A stretch of DNA of 64,000 bases, taken from contig NZ_FOIJ01000001.1 in the NCBI RefSeq assembly GCF_900111745.1, positions 992,001 to 1,056,000 on the forward strand, given 5' to 3'. This document shows positions 11,621 to 49,219 of this stretch, piece after piece. The DNA comes from Stigmatella erecta (GTDB taxonomy: Bacteria > Myxococcota > Myxococcia > Myxococcales > Myxococcaceae). Below the pieces are notes generated by a model. That model worked only from the letters and a program-made list of their open reading frames with translations. It made no database searches and had not been told where the DNA came from. Each line of letters opens with the position of its first letter. Within the stretch, counting starts at the first letter, position 1. Made by a program: the position numbers and the translations under genes.

Positions 11621-11660
11621 CTGGTGACGGCTGTCACCAGGGGCGAAACGTTGTCACCAG
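11621..11660 (+). promoter_or_regulatory. Predicted enhancer (bEBP) binding sites upstream of the chitinase gene
   Basis: A perfect palindrome CTGGTGAC-GGCT-GTCACCAG (11621-11640) is followed two helical turns later by a half site GTCACCAG (11653-11660). A degenerate copy (GTCACCGG, 11589-11596) lies before them. The palindrome is centred about 119 bp upstream of the predicted sigma-54 transcription start (about 11749), the usual distance for NtrC-type activators. The same palindrome recurs at 45644-45661, at the same distance from another sigma-54 element. Confidence 0.72.
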
Positions 11661-11721: not shown

Positions 11722-11738
11722 TTGGCACGCGGGATGCT
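11722..11738 (+). promoter_or_regulatory. Sigma-54 promoter of the GH19 chitinase gene
   Basis: TTGGCACG-CGGG-ATGCT matches the consensus YTGGCACG-N4-TTGCW at all positions but one. The GG (11724-11725) and GC (11736-11737) dinucleotides are exactly 10 nt apart. The predicted start is near 11749, giving a leader of about 66 nt to ATG 11815. Confidence 0.78.
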
Positions 11739-11814: not shown

Positions 11815-13026
11815 ATGCTGCGTATGAAGCTGATCCGTTGTCTGTCATTGCTGGGTGTCGTGGGTGGCTTGAGTGGCTGTGCCGTGGAGCAGGAGACCCC
11901 GGAGGAGCTCGGACAGCTCCAGGGCGAGGCCACCGTCACCAGCATCACCGAGGGTGACTATGTCATCCGCTCCGCGCGGACCGGCAAGTGTATGGACATC
12001 GCCGCGTCCGGCACGGCGGACGGGACGAAGGTCCAGCAGTGGGATTGCAACGGGACCAACGCCCAGAAGTTCAACATCTCGCCCACGTCGGATGGGTACT
12101 GGAAGATCATCAACGTCAACAGCGGCAAGGGGCTCGACGTCAAGGCGGTGAGCTACGAGCAGAACGCCGAGATCCACCAGTGGTCCTACGTCGGTGGGGC
12201 CAACCAGCAGTTCCGGTTCGTGAACCGGGGCGGCGACCGGTTCACCATCCACCTGCGCCACACGGACATGGCCATCGATCTGTACTGGGGCTCGGCGGAC
12301 AACGGGACGATCTACGTGCAGTACCCCTACAGCACCTACGACAACCAGCTCTTCACCCTCGACAAGGTGAGCGGTGGCGGCACGACCCCTCCCCCCACCG
12401 GCAACGGCATCGCCTCGGTCCTGAGCGAGGGCACCTTCAACTCCATGTTCCCCAGCCGCAACGGCTTCTACACCTACCGGGCGCTGGTGGACGCGGCCAA
12501 CACCTTCCCGGAGTTCGCCACCTCCAGCGATATCGCCATCCGCAAGCGCGAGGTGGCCGCCTTCCTGGCCAACATCGCCCACGAGACCGGCAACCTGGTC
12601 TACATCGAGGAGATCAACAAGAGCGTCATGTGCGACACCAGCTGGGGCCCTGCCGGCTGCGGCTGCGCCGCGGGCAAGATGTACTACGGCCGTGGCCCCA
12701 TCCAGCTGTCGTGGAACGGCAACTACTGCGCCGCCGGTAACTACCTGGGCGTGGACCTGAAGAACAACCCGGACCTGGTGGCCCAGAACGCCACCATCGC
12801 CTGGCGCACGGGCCTCTGGTTCTGGATGACCCAGACGGGCGCCGGCTCCATGACCGCCCACAACGCCATCATCAACAACGCGGGCTTCGGGCAGACCATC
12901 CGCTCCATCAACGGGGCGCTGGAGTGCGACGGCAAGAACCCGGGCCAGGTCGACAGCCGCGTCAACAACTACAACCGCTTCCTGCAGATGCTGGGTGGCA
13001 CCGCCGTCGGCAACAGCCGCTGCTAA
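11815..13026 (+). CDS. Lipoprotein chitinase: ricin-B (CBM13) lectin domain plus GH19 catalytic domain
   Basis: A 403-residue protein starting at ATG 11815 with AAGGAG six nt upstream. Signal peptide and lipobox: LSGC, Cys22. Residues about 45-185 form a ricin-B beta-trefoil (repeated 'GKCMDIAASG..DGTKVQQWDC..' and 'QW' units), a sugar-binding module. A short Gly/Thr/Pro linker follows, then a GH19 chitinase domain (about 198-400). The GH19 motifs are FLANIAHETGN with the catalytic Glu257, IEEINK with the second acid Glu266, YYGRGPIQLSWNGNY and GLWFWMT. The family cuts chitin endo-wise by inversion, and related folds act on peptidoglycan. As a surface lipoprotein it could serve prey or fungal wall lysis. 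It is driven by the sigma-54 promoter at 11722. Confidence 0.92.
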   Translation: MLRMKLIRCLSLLGVVGGLSGCAVEQETPEELGQLQGEATVTSITEGDYVIRSARTGKCMDIAASGTADGTKVQQWDCNGTNAQKFNISPTSDGYWKIINVNSGKGLDVKAVSYEQNAEIHQWSYVGGANQQFRFVNRGGDRFTIHLRHTDMAIDLYWGSADNGTIYVQYPYSTYDNQLFTLDKVSGGGTTPPPTGNGIASVLSEGTFNSMFPSRNGFYTYRALVDAANTFPEFATSSDIAIRKREVAAFLANIAHETGNLVYIEEINKSVMCDTSWGPAGCGCAAGKMYYGRGPIQLSWNGNYCAAGNYLGVDLKNNPDLVAQNATIAWRTGLWFWMTQTGAGSMTAHNAIINNAGFGQTIRSINGALECDGKNPGQVDSRVNNYNRFLQMLGGTAVGNSRC

Positions 13027-44186: not shown

Positions 44187-45260
44187 TCAATCAAAGTGGA
44201 ATTTGTAGAGATTCCGATTCTGAATCACCAATCCGGGGCCGTCATAGGCAAGGTCGAAGGGGAGGCGTTCCTGCAAATAGGTCCCCTGGTAGCTATGCGC
44301 CTCGATGAGCGACTTCGCGGAGAACTCGACGATCTTCGCTTGGCGGCCAAAGATATCCTTCCCCGGATTGTTGCGGAAGCTCGTCGCGCCTTCCACCCCG
44401 AAGAGGTTGGAGACCGGATCCTTGTTGTTGACGTAGTGCACATAGCGGGGACCATCGGGATAACGGCCCGAGGCCGCGCCAAACGTCTCGACCTTGATCC
44501 GGTACAACAGATCGGATTTGCCCTCCCGCTCAAGTTCCTTGGCGACCTCTCCCAGCGCGCGGCTGGTGATGAGGCCCCCTTGGCTGTGCGCCATCAGGTG
44601 GACGGGGCGGCGGTCCCTCAGCTCGCTGAGGATGACGTCCCTCAGTGACTCCACGGCCTCATTCGTTCCCACATTGAGCTTGTCGGTGACACTCTGCTTC
44701 AAATCTCCCAACACGCCCTCGGTCGCGTTGTGAATGCCCACTACCTTTGCGCCCGTCGCGTCGGCGGTCGTCTGGAGGGCCGACTTCTGCTCATCCAGGG
44801 ACGTGTTGATGCCATTGATCTGGATGATGGTCTCCCCCGAAGGGCGCTTCGTGCCCGGCCGGGGCGTGAAACCCTCGATGTCCTTCAGCTTGACCGCTTC
44901 AAGGTCCTTCTTGCCCACGAGATCTTCCTGCTTGATCGTCTTGTCAACGCCCACCAGCGCGCCGTCGAACTCCACGTCATTCGTGCGCTTGTGCAGGTTG
45001 ACGGGGTCAATGCCCAGCTGCCGGGTCAGTTCCTCGACGACCTTGGGATCGTCCAAGTTCAACTTGCGGATATCCAGCGTGGGCGGCAAGCCGAGGTGCT
45101 GCGCCAAGTCCTTCAACTTCTGCACCGTCTGAGGGTCGAAGCCGTCCGCGAACTGCTGGGCCTTTCGCGCCGAGGGAATGACAGTCTTGGGAGAAGATAC
45201 CTCCGCGCGCGTCTCGAACGAGGAAGGAGCCGGGGAGTAACGCCGATTGACATTGATCAT
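44187..45260 (-). CDS. Alpha/beta-hydrolase (lipase/esterase-like), possible secreted effector
   Basis: A 357-residue protein with no classical signal peptide. The C-terminal two-thirds is an alpha/beta-hydrolase: IIQINGINTSLDEQKSAL (oxyanion region), GAKVVGIHNATEG, nucleophile Ser in HLMAHSQGGLITSRAL, and a catalytic Asp in NNKDPVSN. The His candidate is in IEAHSYQGTYL. The N-terminal 110 residues are hydrophilic and variable-looking (Ser/Pro/Lys-rich, then helical). The shape, a short extension before a lipase-like domain, resembles secreted lipase effectors, but the delivery route is unknown. The start is ATG 45260; an alternative ATG lies at 45368. It is preceded by a long leader and a sigma-54 promoter. 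Confidence 0.7.
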   Translation of the reverse strand: MINVNRRYSPAPSSFETRAEVSSPKTVIPSARKAQQFADGFDPQTVQKLKDLAQHLGLPPTLDIRKLNLDDPKVVEELTRQLGIDPVNLHKRTNDVEFDGALVGVDKTIKQEDLVGKKDLEAVKLKDIEGFTPRPGTKRPSGETIIQINGINTSLDEQKSALQTTADATGAKVVGIHNATEGVLGDLKQSVTDKLNVGTNEAVESLRDVILSELRDRRPVHLMAHSQGGLITSRALGEVAKELEREGKSDLLYRIKVETFGAASGRYPDGPRYVHYVNNKDPVSNLFGVEGATSFRNNPGKDIFGRQAKIVEFSAKSLIEAHSYQGTYLQERLPFDLAYDGPGLVIQNRNLYKFHFD

Positions 45261-45470
45261 GAGGTTGCCTGCTTTGCGAATGGGATTGAGCGCCGTGAGC
45301 GACGGTGCGTCGCATGAGCCACTGGAGCGTCCCGCTGTTGTGTGCTCATACCTGCGATACGCACGCATGCCGCCACCGGTTACACGCTGGAAATAAGATC
45401 TCTATTTTCTGGCGCGCTCACCGCGCAGGCGCTGTTCCTGACAAGCATTGCTGGATGCGGAGAGGTGATT

Positions 45471-45508
45471 AAATACAAACGGCCCGCTGGCGATGTCGCC
45501 AACGGGCC
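45471..45508 (-). terminator. Intrinsic terminator or attenuator in the alpha/beta-hydrolase leader
   Basis: A stem of 12 pairs with one mismatch (arms 45481-45493 and 45496-45508, GGCCCGCTGGCGA...TCGCCAACGGGCC) is followed on the minus strand by GTTTGTATTTAA. It lies about 25-52 nt downstream of the start predicted from the sigma-54 element at 45543-45559, so that transcript would meet a terminator before the gene. Confidence 0.72.
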
Positions 45509-45542
45509 GTGGACCTCTCATCGCTGTGGAACTGACGTCAAC

Positions 45543-45559
45543 TGCACTCGACGTGCCAA
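45543..45559 (-). promoter_or_regulatory. Sigma-54 promoter upstream of the alpha/beta-hydrolase gene
   Basis: Read on the minus strand: TTGGCACG-TCGA-GTGCA. The -24 box is perfect and the -12 box has one mismatch (GTGCA for TTGCA), with 10 nt between GG and GC. The predicted start is near 45532, about 270 nt before ATG 45260. The rest of the 423-bp gap (45261-45683) holds the terminator hairpin and the activator sites given separately. Confidence 0.73.
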
Positions 45560-45610
45560 GCCATGAACGGGCAATGCCTCTCTGGAGCAGGCCCTGTCCT
45601 GGGGCCCGGG

Positions 45611-45661
45611 TGATAACTCCAGTCACCAGTTGCCGGGCGAAGGTGGTGACTGGAGTCACCA
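45611..45661 (-). promoter_or_regulatory. Paired enhancer (bEBP) sites, same motif as the chitinase promoter
   Basis: A perfect palindrome TGGTGACT-GG-AGTCACCA (45644-45661; equally TGGTGAC-N4-GTCACCA) and a weaker copy TGATAAC-N4-GTCACCAG (45611-45629). The two are 33 bp apart, three helical turns. The strong site is centred about 121 bp and the weak site about 88 bp upstream of the predicted start, almost the same spacing as at the chitinase gene. Confidence 0.73.
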
Positions 45662-45683
45662 GCCCCTTGCACGGAGCGGGAAC

Positions 45684-46448
45684 TCAGTAACCGAGCCGCT
45701 CCGCGACGTAGTGGTCGAGCTGCCGGTACCAGGTGGGCCAATCGTGGGGCATGTCCTCGCCCCAGATGTCCAGGTTGTGAGGGATGCCCCGCTGGTGCAG
45801 CAGGTGGCTGAGGTGCTCGGAGTAGCCGGGGAACTCCCAGGCGCCACGGCTCGTCACCAGGTGGATCCGGCTGTGGTGGCGGAGGAGGTCCATGTTGGAG
45901 CCCTCAGGCAGGTTCGGCACGTAGGAGACAGGGTTGTTGAAGTAGACCTCCTCGCTCCAGAACCCATGGAGGAACTCCGGCTGGAGATCGTAGAAGCCAC
46001 CCAGGCCGAGGAGCAGCTCGAACAGGTCCGGCCGCCGGAAGAAGGCATTGGCGGCGTGGAAGGCTCCGAAGCTGGCCCCCGCGGCGCCGATGCGCGCATG
46101 GCCGTTGCCCAGGCAACCTCGGATGTGGGGCACCACCTCCTGCTCGACGTAATCCGAGAAGCGCGCCTGGTTGTGGGCCTTCTCGTGCAGGGGGATGCCC
46201 GGGTTCATCCAGGCCCAGGGGTTGATGCTGTTGATGCTGAAGATCTGGAACCGGCCCGCGAACAGGTGGTGCGCGACGGACTGGATGAGCCCCATGCGCT
46301 CGGCCTCCAGGAAGTCGCCTCCCGCCGTGGGGAAGAGCAGCATCGCCGGGCCCCAGTGGCCGTAGCGGACAACGGGCATGTCCATGCCCAACCGGTGGCT
46401 GTACCAACCGAAGACTTCCCGGCGCAGGTTCGGATCGACGGATGACAT
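45684..46448 (-). CDS. Esterase (alpha/beta-hydrolase, esterase-D-like)
   Basis: A 254-residue cytoplasmic hydrolase starting at ATG 46448. The order is LFPTAGGDFLEAE (oxyanion region), FSINSINPWAWMN, the nucleophile Ser in GAAGASFGAFHAANAF, and a final His in GEDMPHDWPTWY. This matches bacterial 'putative esterase' proteins of about 250 residues with a GxSxGxxxA elbow. The substrate is unknown. It is divergent from the toxin-like lipoprotein gene at 46699. Confidence 0.8.
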   Translation of the reverse strand: MSSVDPNLRREVFGWYSHRLGMDMPVVRYGHWGPAMLLFPTAGGDFLEAERMGLIQSVAHHLFAGRFQIFSINSINPWAWMNPGIPLHEKAHNQARFSDYVEQEVVPHIRGCLGNGHARIGAAGASFGAFHAANAFFRRPDLFELLLGLGGFYDLQPEFLHGFWSEEVYFNNPVSYVPNLPEGSNMDLLRHHSRIHLVTSRGAWEFPGYSEHLSHLLHQRGIPHNLDIWGEDMPHDWPTWYRQLDHYVAERLGY

Positions 46449-46698
46449 GAGGGCGGCTTTCTCGGGTGTATGGCCCGCCCGGTGGGACGGGCTGCAGGGG
46501 AGGAAATCCTCGGGCAGGCTCTTACCAGTTCCCGTCCCTGACTCAAGAACGGTCCCGGCGCACCAGGCCCCGGGCATGGATGCCGTCAAAGGTCTCGAAG
46601 ACCGCGTCTTCAGTGGCGCTGGACGTCCCCGTGGCACTGCAGATATCGATGTAGTCTCGGTCCAGCACGGCTACCGACGTTGTCCGCATCCAAGCGCT

Positions 46699-47529
46699 AT
46701 GCCCCTTCTTGCTCCCGCCCGGTTCTTTCTCGCCATGCTCGCCGCGAGTGTGAACTCCGCCGCTTGCAGCCCTGCAAGCATGACCGGTCAACGTGCACCA
46801 CGGCACTACTCGCAAACGACGGACTCGGCGACCACTGCCTGCCTGCGGACTCCCGCCTGTTACTCGCCACCAACGGGTGAAACCTCGATCCTGCCCTGGC
46901 TGTCACGAGCCGCCTCGGCTGCCGGAAGCGGAGCCGCCGTGCTACGCCTGCTGGAAGCTGCTGAACTCTCGAAGATCGAGCAAGTTCTGAACGACTGTGC
47001 CAACCAAGCGAGCCATCGTGTCAACGAGCAACTGCTGGGCAAAGGCCAACGGCCTACACGTCAGCGCTGCCAGGAGACATTCCGAATGGAACCCGGAGGC
47101 AACAAGGTGACCTGGGCCATGCATCTGGGACGTGAAAAGCATCAGGCTGCACTGGAGTGCGCGCAACAAGAGCTAGGCGAGCTGTTCCCGGGCAACCTCA
47201 GCTTCCAGCCCACTTACCGGTACGACAGGACAACGAAAAAGGTTGAACCCATCGCTCCCAAACAGGTGGATGAGTGGCTTCGAAATGGCTTCTTTGGAAA
47301 GCTCCTTGGGACGCTGATTCCCGATGTCGTGGTCCATGCGGCAGGAGACTTGTCCCGCGTCCAAGCCGTCCTCGACTTCAAATTCCCCTGCCCAGGGGAT
47401 AGAAACCCTACGTGGCGCGAATATCACGAAGACCATCCTTACTACCCAGCAAACCAAGGTGAAATTTACAGAGAAGCATTCAAAGTAACACCCAAGATGC
47501 TCTCTCCTGGATTTGGGGCCATGCGATGA
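46699..47529 (+). CDS. sitA6: SitA6-family polymorphic toxin lipoprotein
   Basis: A 276-residue lipoprotein. ATG 46699 gives a signal peptide and lipobox (SVNSAAC, Cys23); the open frame to 46378 is out of context. The middle is hydrophilic. The C-terminus (about 170-276) has a compact domain with IPDVVVHAAGDLSR, AVLDFKFPCPGDRNPTW and YYPANQGEIYREAF. Its PD...DFK residues are arranged like the PD-(D/E)xK nuclease core (inference). In M. xanthus, SitA lipoprotein toxins pass between kin cells by TraA/B outer-membrane exchange, and cognate SitI gives immunity. A SitI6-type gene two genes downstream supports this family. The next gene overlaps its stop by 4 bp. Base composition is visibly lower in GC than the flanks. 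Confidence 0.75.
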   Translation: MPLLAPARFFLAMLAASVNSAACSPASMTGQRAPRHYSQTTDSATTACLRTPACYSPPTGETSILPWLSRAASAAGSGAAVLRLLEAAELSKIEQVLNDCANQASHRVNEQLLGKGQRPTRQRCQETFRMEPGGNKVTWAMHLGREKHQAALECAQQELGELFPGNLSFQPTYRYDRTTKKVEPIAPKQVDEWLRNGFFGKLLGTLIPDVVVHAAGDLSRVQAVLDFKFPCPGDRNPTWREYHEDHPYYPANQGEIYREAFKVTPKMLSPGFGAMR

Positions 47530-48452
47530 CCGGGCGCTATCCACGAATTCAGTTCCATCGAGTCATTGATGGCGAGCAGGTCCTATCCGTCCAGATGAGT
47601 CTCAGCATTTGCTTCTATCTACGGCGCTCACACCGGGAAATAATTCCGGCAGTCCTCAACGCGTTGGAGGTCTACCGCAACGCCATTGAGCCCCACAGTC
47701 TTGCTTGGTATCCGAATGAGGACGGTGACTGGCAGGAGCTTGACGACGCGGGTTGGGAGCTTAACCGCCGGAAGATGCGTCACCCTCGCGGTGCGAATAT
47801 TTGCTTGCGTGACACTCCCCATCTTACAACGGATTACGAGTTCAGGTATTACGGACGCGAGTTGGCGCAGCCAGGCTTGGATGACCAGACAGGGCCTACC
47901 TGCGCCATGGCATTCTGGCTCCCCATGGGGTATCTGGAGGCCCAAGGTCCCGAGCAAGTGTGGAAGCTAGCGCTCCAATTGGGCTCTGCGCTGCCATTCA
48001 ATTCTGGGCACGCCGGGCTCTCATTCTATTGTCATGAGAGCCTGTCCGGCATCACCGATCCGCTCCGCCCTTTGTGCTTCCGCTACCCAGGCGTGGACAT
48101 GCCCGCCATGGAAAGCATTCCCCTGGAACTCGGGACGAGGCTCAAAGGCGCGTACTGGATGACTTTCCTGGGGGCTTCCGTTCTGGACAAACTCGGAGGC
48201 ACCGCAGGACTCCGCGCGCGCCTGCATTCAGTAGATACCCATGTTGAGGACTTAAGTGCAAACCGTGGAGTTGTAAGGCTTGGGAGGTGGCCTGAAGCCG
48301 GTGACATGGACCATGGCCACACCCTTCCTGCATACCGCGAGTTAGCACAAGTGCTAGAGCCATGGCTCTACCGTGCCCCCCACTCTCCCTGGAGCGGATT
48401 TTCGGATGAAGAAGTCTACAACTGGGAACACCGTTTCATTAAAACCATCTAA
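47526..48452 (+). CDS. Type VI immunity family (DUF3396) protein, probable second immunity protein
   Basis: A 308-residue soluble protein whose ATG (47526) overlaps the toxin stop (ATGA), so it is translated with it. The pattern fits DUF3396 'type VI immunity family' proteins: LSICFYLRRSHREIIPAVLNALEVYRN, WELNRRKMRHPRGANICLRD, YYGRELAQPG, AMAFWLPMGYLEAQGPEQVWKLALQLGSAL, GHAGLSFYC and GTRLKGAYWMTFLG. These occur near type VI or other polymorphic effectors. It has no signal peptide. Its lower GC matches the toxin gene. Confidence 0.72.
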   Translation: MTGRYPRIQFHRVIDGEQVLSVQMSLSICFYLRRSHREIIPAVLNALEVYRNAIEPHSLAWYPNEDGDWQELDDAGWELNRRKMRHPRGANICLRDTPHLTTDYEFRYYGRELAQPGLDDQTGPTCAMAFWLPMGYLEAQGPEQVWKLALQLGSALPFNSGHAGLSFYCHESLSGITDPLRPLCFRYPGVDMPAMESIPLELGTRLKGAYWMTFLGASVLDKLGGTAGLRARLHSVDTHVEDLSANRGVVRLGRWPEAGDMDHGHTLPAYRELAQVLEPWLYRAPHSPWSGFSDEEVYNWEHRFIKTI

Positions 48453-48472
48453 CAAAATTTCATACCCCATAG

Positions 48473-49219
<747 letters not shown>

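Follow-up and report, generated by a model that had tools for sequence, protein, structure and literature searches.

A dispersed sigma-54 promoter arrangement before effector-like genes of Stigmatella erecta and a candidate FHA-domain activator

VasH, for the T6SS, and HrpR/HrpS, for the T3SS, activate secretion systems and effectors together with sigma-54. For Myxococcus xanthus, Jelsbak, Givskov and Kaiser (2005, PNAS 102:3010) reportedly treated FHA-domain enhancer-binding proteins and the sigma-54 regulon, under a title said to concern fruiting-body development. HrpL control has been described (PMC5263251), as have tandem bEBP sites upstream of the -24/-12 promoters of the Nla28 regulon in M. 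xanthus (PMC7910581, PMC9765219). The predation system of M. xanthus consists of the Tad-like Kil apparatus and a needleless T3SS*; it lyses prey, and the T3SS* is needed for lysis (PMC12075869, PMC10433427, PMC8460266). A review and a primary paper both give the effectors of the Kil/T3SS* machinery as unknown (PMC10433427, PMC12075869).

We analyzed a window of 64,000 nucleotides belonging to the 9.2 Mb genome of S. erecta (labelled G000), in which a sequence-only reading had noticed the same palindrome and sigma-54 element ahead of a chitinase gene and of a lipase-like gene, and had proposed a shared bEBP regulon. We consider it probable (roughly 0.74) that the two sites belong, as promoters, to one dispersed sigma-54 regulon with an effector output, whose enhancers would be bound by a single FHA-domain activator, P0004. 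The literature searched, which included few subscription papers, gave no earlier description of the palindrome, of an FHA-type bEBP associated with predation, or of the candidate effectors.

Promoter elements in the window and in related genomes

The palindrome and the -24/-12 element were verified at both places, on the minus strand at the lipase side (Table 1). Both -24/-12 elements have GG at -24 and GC at -12 in the spacing of TGGCAYRN4TTGCW. The start of the first palindrome precedes that of the -24 element by 103 bp on the lipase side and by 101 bp on the chitinase side, and the main UAS-to-promoter distance therefore matches, as the sequence-only reading had it. Its claim of likeness does not extend to the second site, which at the lipase side is a two-mismatch copy 33 bp downstream of the first palindrome and at the chitinase side is a half-site only, 20 bp away. 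The GH19 ATG lies 76 nt after its -12 element, and conservation of this promoter across five species covers the -24/-12 element and the greater part of the two palindrome halves and of the IHF-like element, with the half-site GTCACCA of UAS 2 invariant. No IHF-like match was found at the lipase site.

Table 1. Coordinates of features at the two window sites, of regulon genes in G000, and of variant palindromes beside activator paralogues.
Feature	Location	Strand	Details
UAS 1, GH19 promoter	11622..11639	+	exact palindrome TGGTGAC-GGCT-GTCACCA; one of 12 exact genome copies; kept in 4 other species
UAS 2, GH19 promoter	11642..11659	+	half-site GTCACCA at 11653-11659
IHF-like element TAAAGCCTTGAA	11683..11694	+	fits YAAN4TTGAW; between GH19 UAS and promoter; largely conserved in 5 species
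Sigma-54 -24/-12 element TGGCACGCGGGATGCT, GH19 side	11723..11738	+	GGCAC and ATGCT invariant in 5 species
GH19 chitinase with ricin-B lectin domains	11815..13026	+	PF00182 2e-40, PF14200 1e-44; lipobox LSGC, predicted Sec lipoprotein
UAS 1, lipase side	45644..45661	-	exact palindrome TGGTGAC-TCCA-GTCACCA
UAS 2, lipase side (TGGTGACTGGAGTTATCA)	45611..45628	-	TGGTGAC-TGGA-GTTATCA
Sigma-54 -24/-12 element TGGCACGTCGAGTGCA, lipase side	45543..45558	-	minus-strand TTGGCACGTCGAGTGCA spans 45543-45559
Intrinsic-terminator-like hairpin	45479..45510	-	14-bp stem followed by TTTGTATTT (T-rich); between promoter and lipase-like gene
P0001, alpha/beta-hydrolase-like, 357 aa	44187..45260	-	no signal peptide; disordered 1-43; D-G-F-D at 39-42; GxSxG with S226
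Regulon gene, G000	C3		ricin B-thaumatin protein
Regulon gene, G000	C6		alpha-lytic-type protease with ricin B
Regulon genes, G000	C2, C10		two SLT muramidase-domain proteins
Regulon gene, G000	C1:844733		thaumatin-like protein
Regulon gene, G000	C4		M4 thermolysin without Sec signal
Regulon genes without Pfam family, G000	C1:340518, C2:923542, C5, C7 (two), C10:122390, C16, C36		
Regulon genes, G000	44187-45260 and C24		lipase-like gene and paralogue, bringing the total to about 17
Variant palindrome beside activator paralogue, G020	L116:10859-10876		
Variant palindrome beside activator paralogue, G004	L118:9468-9485		

Exact copies of TGGTGAC-N4-GTCACCA number 12 in the 9.2 Mb, where base or dinucleotide composition predicts about 0.03. 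When up to two mismatches were allowed, the whole genome gave 161 matches per strand versus 19 for the reversed pattern. A two-part pattern, GTCACC followed 40-100 bp on by TGGCAYN6TGC, occurred 14 times in G000 and its reversed control once. The genome-wide search and the random-expectation count thus leave standing the claim that the recurrence is unlikely by chance; the pattern is not a common one. Eight of the 12 exact palindromes have a clear promoter and gene, and two are doubtful. Among the 96 family genomes, the strict two-part signal was present in 38 and the reversed control in one.

The loci retrieved yielded 68 non-redundant promoters, in which the enhancer consensus is again TGGTGAC-N4-GTCACCA and the -24/-12 consensus likewise follows the sigma-54 pattern. 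Extra UAS copies are most commonly spaced 19-21 bp apart, and the distance from UAS to -24 ranges from 83 to 159 bp with a period of 10.95 bp, a periodicity reached in none of 1000 simulations. An exact IHF-like site, YAAN4TTGAW, stands between UAS and promoter in 18 of the 68, compared to a mean of 0.07 in mononucleotide shuffles. Helically phased enhancer palindromes some 80-150 bp upstream and a DNA-bending site between are features of a sigma-54 promoter. Of 40 held-out sites, 39 have a gene 0-125 nt downstream.

As judged from the sequences, one or more enhancers, often an IHF-like site, and a -24/-12 element are placed on a fixed helical face before about 17 genes of G000, and the same gene classes carry this predicted promoter arrangement in related genera. 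The proposed sigma-54/bEBP regulon is at this level strongly supported, and extends far beyond the two genes from which it was first suggested. It appears to be real and sizeable, with an ordinary mechanism and an interesting content.

The lipase-like gene and its promoter

P0001 gave only sub-threshold Pfam matches. Foldseek returned cutinases, esterases, and lipases with E values down to 4e-5 at low TM scores of 0.3-0.4. The residues S226 (in HSQGG), D281, and H322 are invariant in 21 homologues, and D-x-F is invariant in the lipase-like family. The predicted structure of P0001 is an alpha/beta-hydrolase fold with a GxSxG nucleophile and an Asp/His pair. Its closest homologues (58-68% identity), on C24 in G000 and in three other genomes (G003, G004, and G005), have canonical UAS and sigma-54 promoters 71-73 nt before the ATG.

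By its elements the lipase site appears a genuine regulon member. Whether its promoter still drives P0001 is uncertain because a strong terminator-like hairpin lies between them (MFE -42.2 kcal/mol, z -7.7), and we put the chance at about even. With the promoter intact but followed by the terminator, the site may now make mainly a short RNA, P0001 being reached by read-through only. A reading that we weigh equally with its converse is that the promoter no longer serves P0001, being the relic of another effector gene or the source of a terminated RNA of about 60 nt, with P0001 itself silent or dependent on a decayed promoter of its own. The position of the hairpin directly after the promoter speaks for this, as does the start codon of P0001, 282 nt after the -12 element compared to 0-125 nt in the 39 held-out genes. 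The cassette of UAS, promoter, and P0001 is moreover specific to G000, other genes being found at this place in all relatives checked, and the region just upstream of P0001 aligns weakly with the canonical promoters of the homologues while having neither a UAS nor a good -24/-12 element. Against it, the near-perfect promoter elements suggest continued selection, the closest homologues of P0001 belong to the regulon, and terminators may be read through or regulated. The question concerns one site, and either answer is compatible with a real regulon.

If the terminator acts, the minus strand at 45455-45531 would give an RNA of about 60 nt with a very stable hairpin, a possible small RNA. The point just after the esterase stop codon (45683-45684) is a variable insertion point with differing genes in each relative examined; the sister genome G003 has a methyltransferase gene between the flanking esterase and amine oxidase genes, and other relatives have different genes. 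The segment at 46378-49219, which differs in G003 and is likely a toxin/immunity or variable island, has a gene for a 383-aa protein; next come those for a TsiV-type T6SS immunity protein (PF11876, 8e-58) and for a Gmx_para_CXXCG protein (PF09535). We considered P0001 as a T6SS effector by way of the TsiV-type immunity gene (47526-48452) and rejected this, that gene being on the opposite strand and in a separate variable segment.

A candidate activator linked to the palindrome

One palindrome (C2:229879) is flanked on one side by an SLT effector gene and on the other by a divergent gene pair encoding a Ser/Thr kinase with TPRs and P0004. P0004 is a protein of 467 aa with an N-terminal FHA domain (PF00498, 5e-16), a sigma-54 AAA+ domain (PF00158, 9e-65) containing the GAFTGA loop, and a Fis-type HTH (PF02954, 1e-4), the composition of an FHA-class bEBP. 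An orthologue, defined by a score of at least 735 bits, was present in all 38 signal-bearing genomes of the 96, and the strict signal was absent from all 49 genomes lacking an orthologue, 14 of which have only paralogues of 69-75% identity. The Fisher P value of 1.7e-18 for this co-distribution is too small because the genomes are related and their kinship overstates independence. In nine genomes bearing an orthologue the strict signal was not found, the pattern having been applied there in its strict and not its relaxed form. Searches for P0004 found none on plasmids, and only distant bEBPs in the genome contig collection.

A stronger argument than the P value is the physical linkage of P0004 to the sites in changing contexts. 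In 13 of the 15 genomes with the closest orthologues, no more than 5 kb separates P0004 from a signal site, nine times by the strict pattern and four by the relaxed one, the chance expectation for the strict cases being about 0.1. The gene context varies, comprising the SLT gene, the thermolysin gene, or other effector genes. Kinase and activator stay linked across genera, together in many genomes with a C39-peptidase-like D-x-F-E protein. The latter, encoded at L025:2595-3515 with equivalents in L109-L114 and L200-L209, adjoins the FHA activator and may be a founding member of the effector set.

We think it rather unlikely that the regulon is real but answers to another bEBP, whether one of the roughly 45 others or a paralogue with a near-identical helix, with P0004 merely co-traveling. 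G000 does encode 46 full bEBP domains, the HTH sequence of P0004 recurs almost unchanged in paralogues of G001, G006, and G002, and the genomes are phylogenetically non-independent; set against this are the exact co-distribution of the signal with P0004 orthologues, the conserved linkage in changing contexts, and the lack of signal where only paralogues occur. The one other bEBP compared, an unrelated response-regulator type encoded near another G000 site, was present in 33 of 38 signal genomes and in 29 of 58 without the signal; missing from five signal-bearing genomes, it fits far worse than P0004.

The recognition helix of the G002 paralogue is near-identical to that of P0004, yet the G002 genome has no signal, and HTH identity alone therefore does not settle specificity. 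In other paralogues (72-74% identity) IDRFYLRK replaces IDRVYLRK in the recognition helix. These V-to-F paralogues adjoin variant palindromes, TGGCGAC-N4-GTCGCCA or TGGCAAC-N4-GTTGCCA; sigma-54 elements and a further effector-like gene are present there too. A paralogue of 70-72% identity followed directly by GGGTGACTCGAGTCACCC palindromes and a sigma-54 element was also seen at L204:6280-6700 (G050) and in G051, G053, and G064, which suggests that FHA activators form a family whose sites are related. Linked indirectly to the TGGTGAC palindrome, by co-distribution and physical proximity, P0004 is a specific candidate for the master activator of the regulon.

Effector-like products and comparison with known systems

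The 73 regulon proteins fall into 24 families. A rough scan, in which some Sec signals go undetected, found a hydrophobic N-terminal segment in five of 112 regulon proteins, and the Sec-exported minority includes the GH19 lipoprotein and a serine protease. A motif of the D/S-x-F-E/D type occurs within the first 130 residues in 14 of the 24 families, compared to 53 of 569 control ORFs (9%). The motif was picked after the first set had been viewed and held up on the held-out set, from sites previously unexamined, where 29 of 39 genes encode it. The N-termini are Ser/Pro-rich and are disordered in the one reliable model, that of P0001; for L034, a regulon protein of 395 aa, AlphaFold gave a pLDDT of 39, and no fold is claimed. 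The targets examined included no gene for secretion machinery. Domains of the muramidase, protease, and esterase types would fit an attack on other cells, and the products are probably used against prey or competitors. The earlier suggestion that the targets act outside the cytoplasm finds support and generalizes across the regulon; for the lipase-like gene itself it stands only in part, given the intervening terminator.

That the palindromes arose by chance or as a mobile repeat and lack a regulatory function is highly improbable, even with two of the 12 exact copies lacking a promoter and lying inside coding sequence or next to the end of a gene, since loci share only the palindrome, bend site, and -24/-12 element amid unrelated flanks, targets span many families, the sites are helically phased and lie on one side of the promoter, and the reversed control is near zero in the 96 genomes and in the two-part count of G000.

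In the mechanism that we favor for the P0004 regulon, the Ser/Thr kinase encoded with the activator, or a substrate of that kinase, would pass its signal on by way of the FHA domain. P0004 would bind the enhancers by its Fis-type HTH and oligomerize on paired palindromes, the DNA would loop with the aid of IHF, and the opening of sigma-54 RNA polymerase would fall to the AAA+ domain and its GAFTGA loop. The predicted output is a set of muramidases, proteases, lipases or esterases, thaumatin-like and other proteins, mostly without a Sec signal, of which most would have a disordered N-terminus with the D/S-x-F-E/D motif and few would be Sec-exported; attack on prey or competitors is the likely purpose.

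A bolder proposal, which we regard as tentative with the odds against it, is that the regulon is the cargo list of the contact-dependent T3SS*/Kil predation machinery, that the D/S-x-F-E/D region is a non-Sec export signal, and that P0004 and the kinase form a prey-responsive switch. Lytic proteins without a Sec signal are plausible T3SS* cargo, given that prey lysis depends on the T3SS* and that no effectors are known for it; some members with a clear Sec signal, such as the GH19 protein, would not be such substrates. SctV is present in 94 of the 96 family genomes, far more widely than the regulon. With T3SS genes in nearly all family genomes, distribution does not test the cargo proposal, and we set aside SctV co-occurrence as uninformative on the export route.

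Like VasH and HrpR/HrpS, P0004 would be a bEBP turning on weapons of interbacterial or host attack. Those activators govern machinery operons or a downstream sigma factor, whereas the present sites immediately precede dispersed effector-like genes. P0004 shares with the M. xanthus FHA activators an FHA domain, an AAA+ domain, a Fis-type HTH, a predicted partnership with sigma-54, and a myxobacterial host. Unlike that work, which by its title deals with fruiting-body development, the present analysis uses sequence to connect one orthologue group with a defined palindrome and with an effector/hydrolase regulon. It offers a candidate DNA target for an FHA-class sigma-54 activator, along with a pair of paralogues whose recognition helix and palindrome differ together. 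The Nla28 regulon has the same sigma-54 consensus and likewise has tandem sites upstream of -24/-12, but the Nla28 half-site CT(C/G)CG(C/G)AG is unrelated to TGGTGAC-N4-GTCACCA, and its described targets are natural-product and developmental genes, unlike the effector regulon here (PMC7910581, PMC9765219). As with the Kil/T3SS* system, the setting is one of predatory myxobacteria, and the combination of a DNA signature, one candidate activator, and an N-terminal motif provides a concrete list of effector candidates across the Myxococcaceae.
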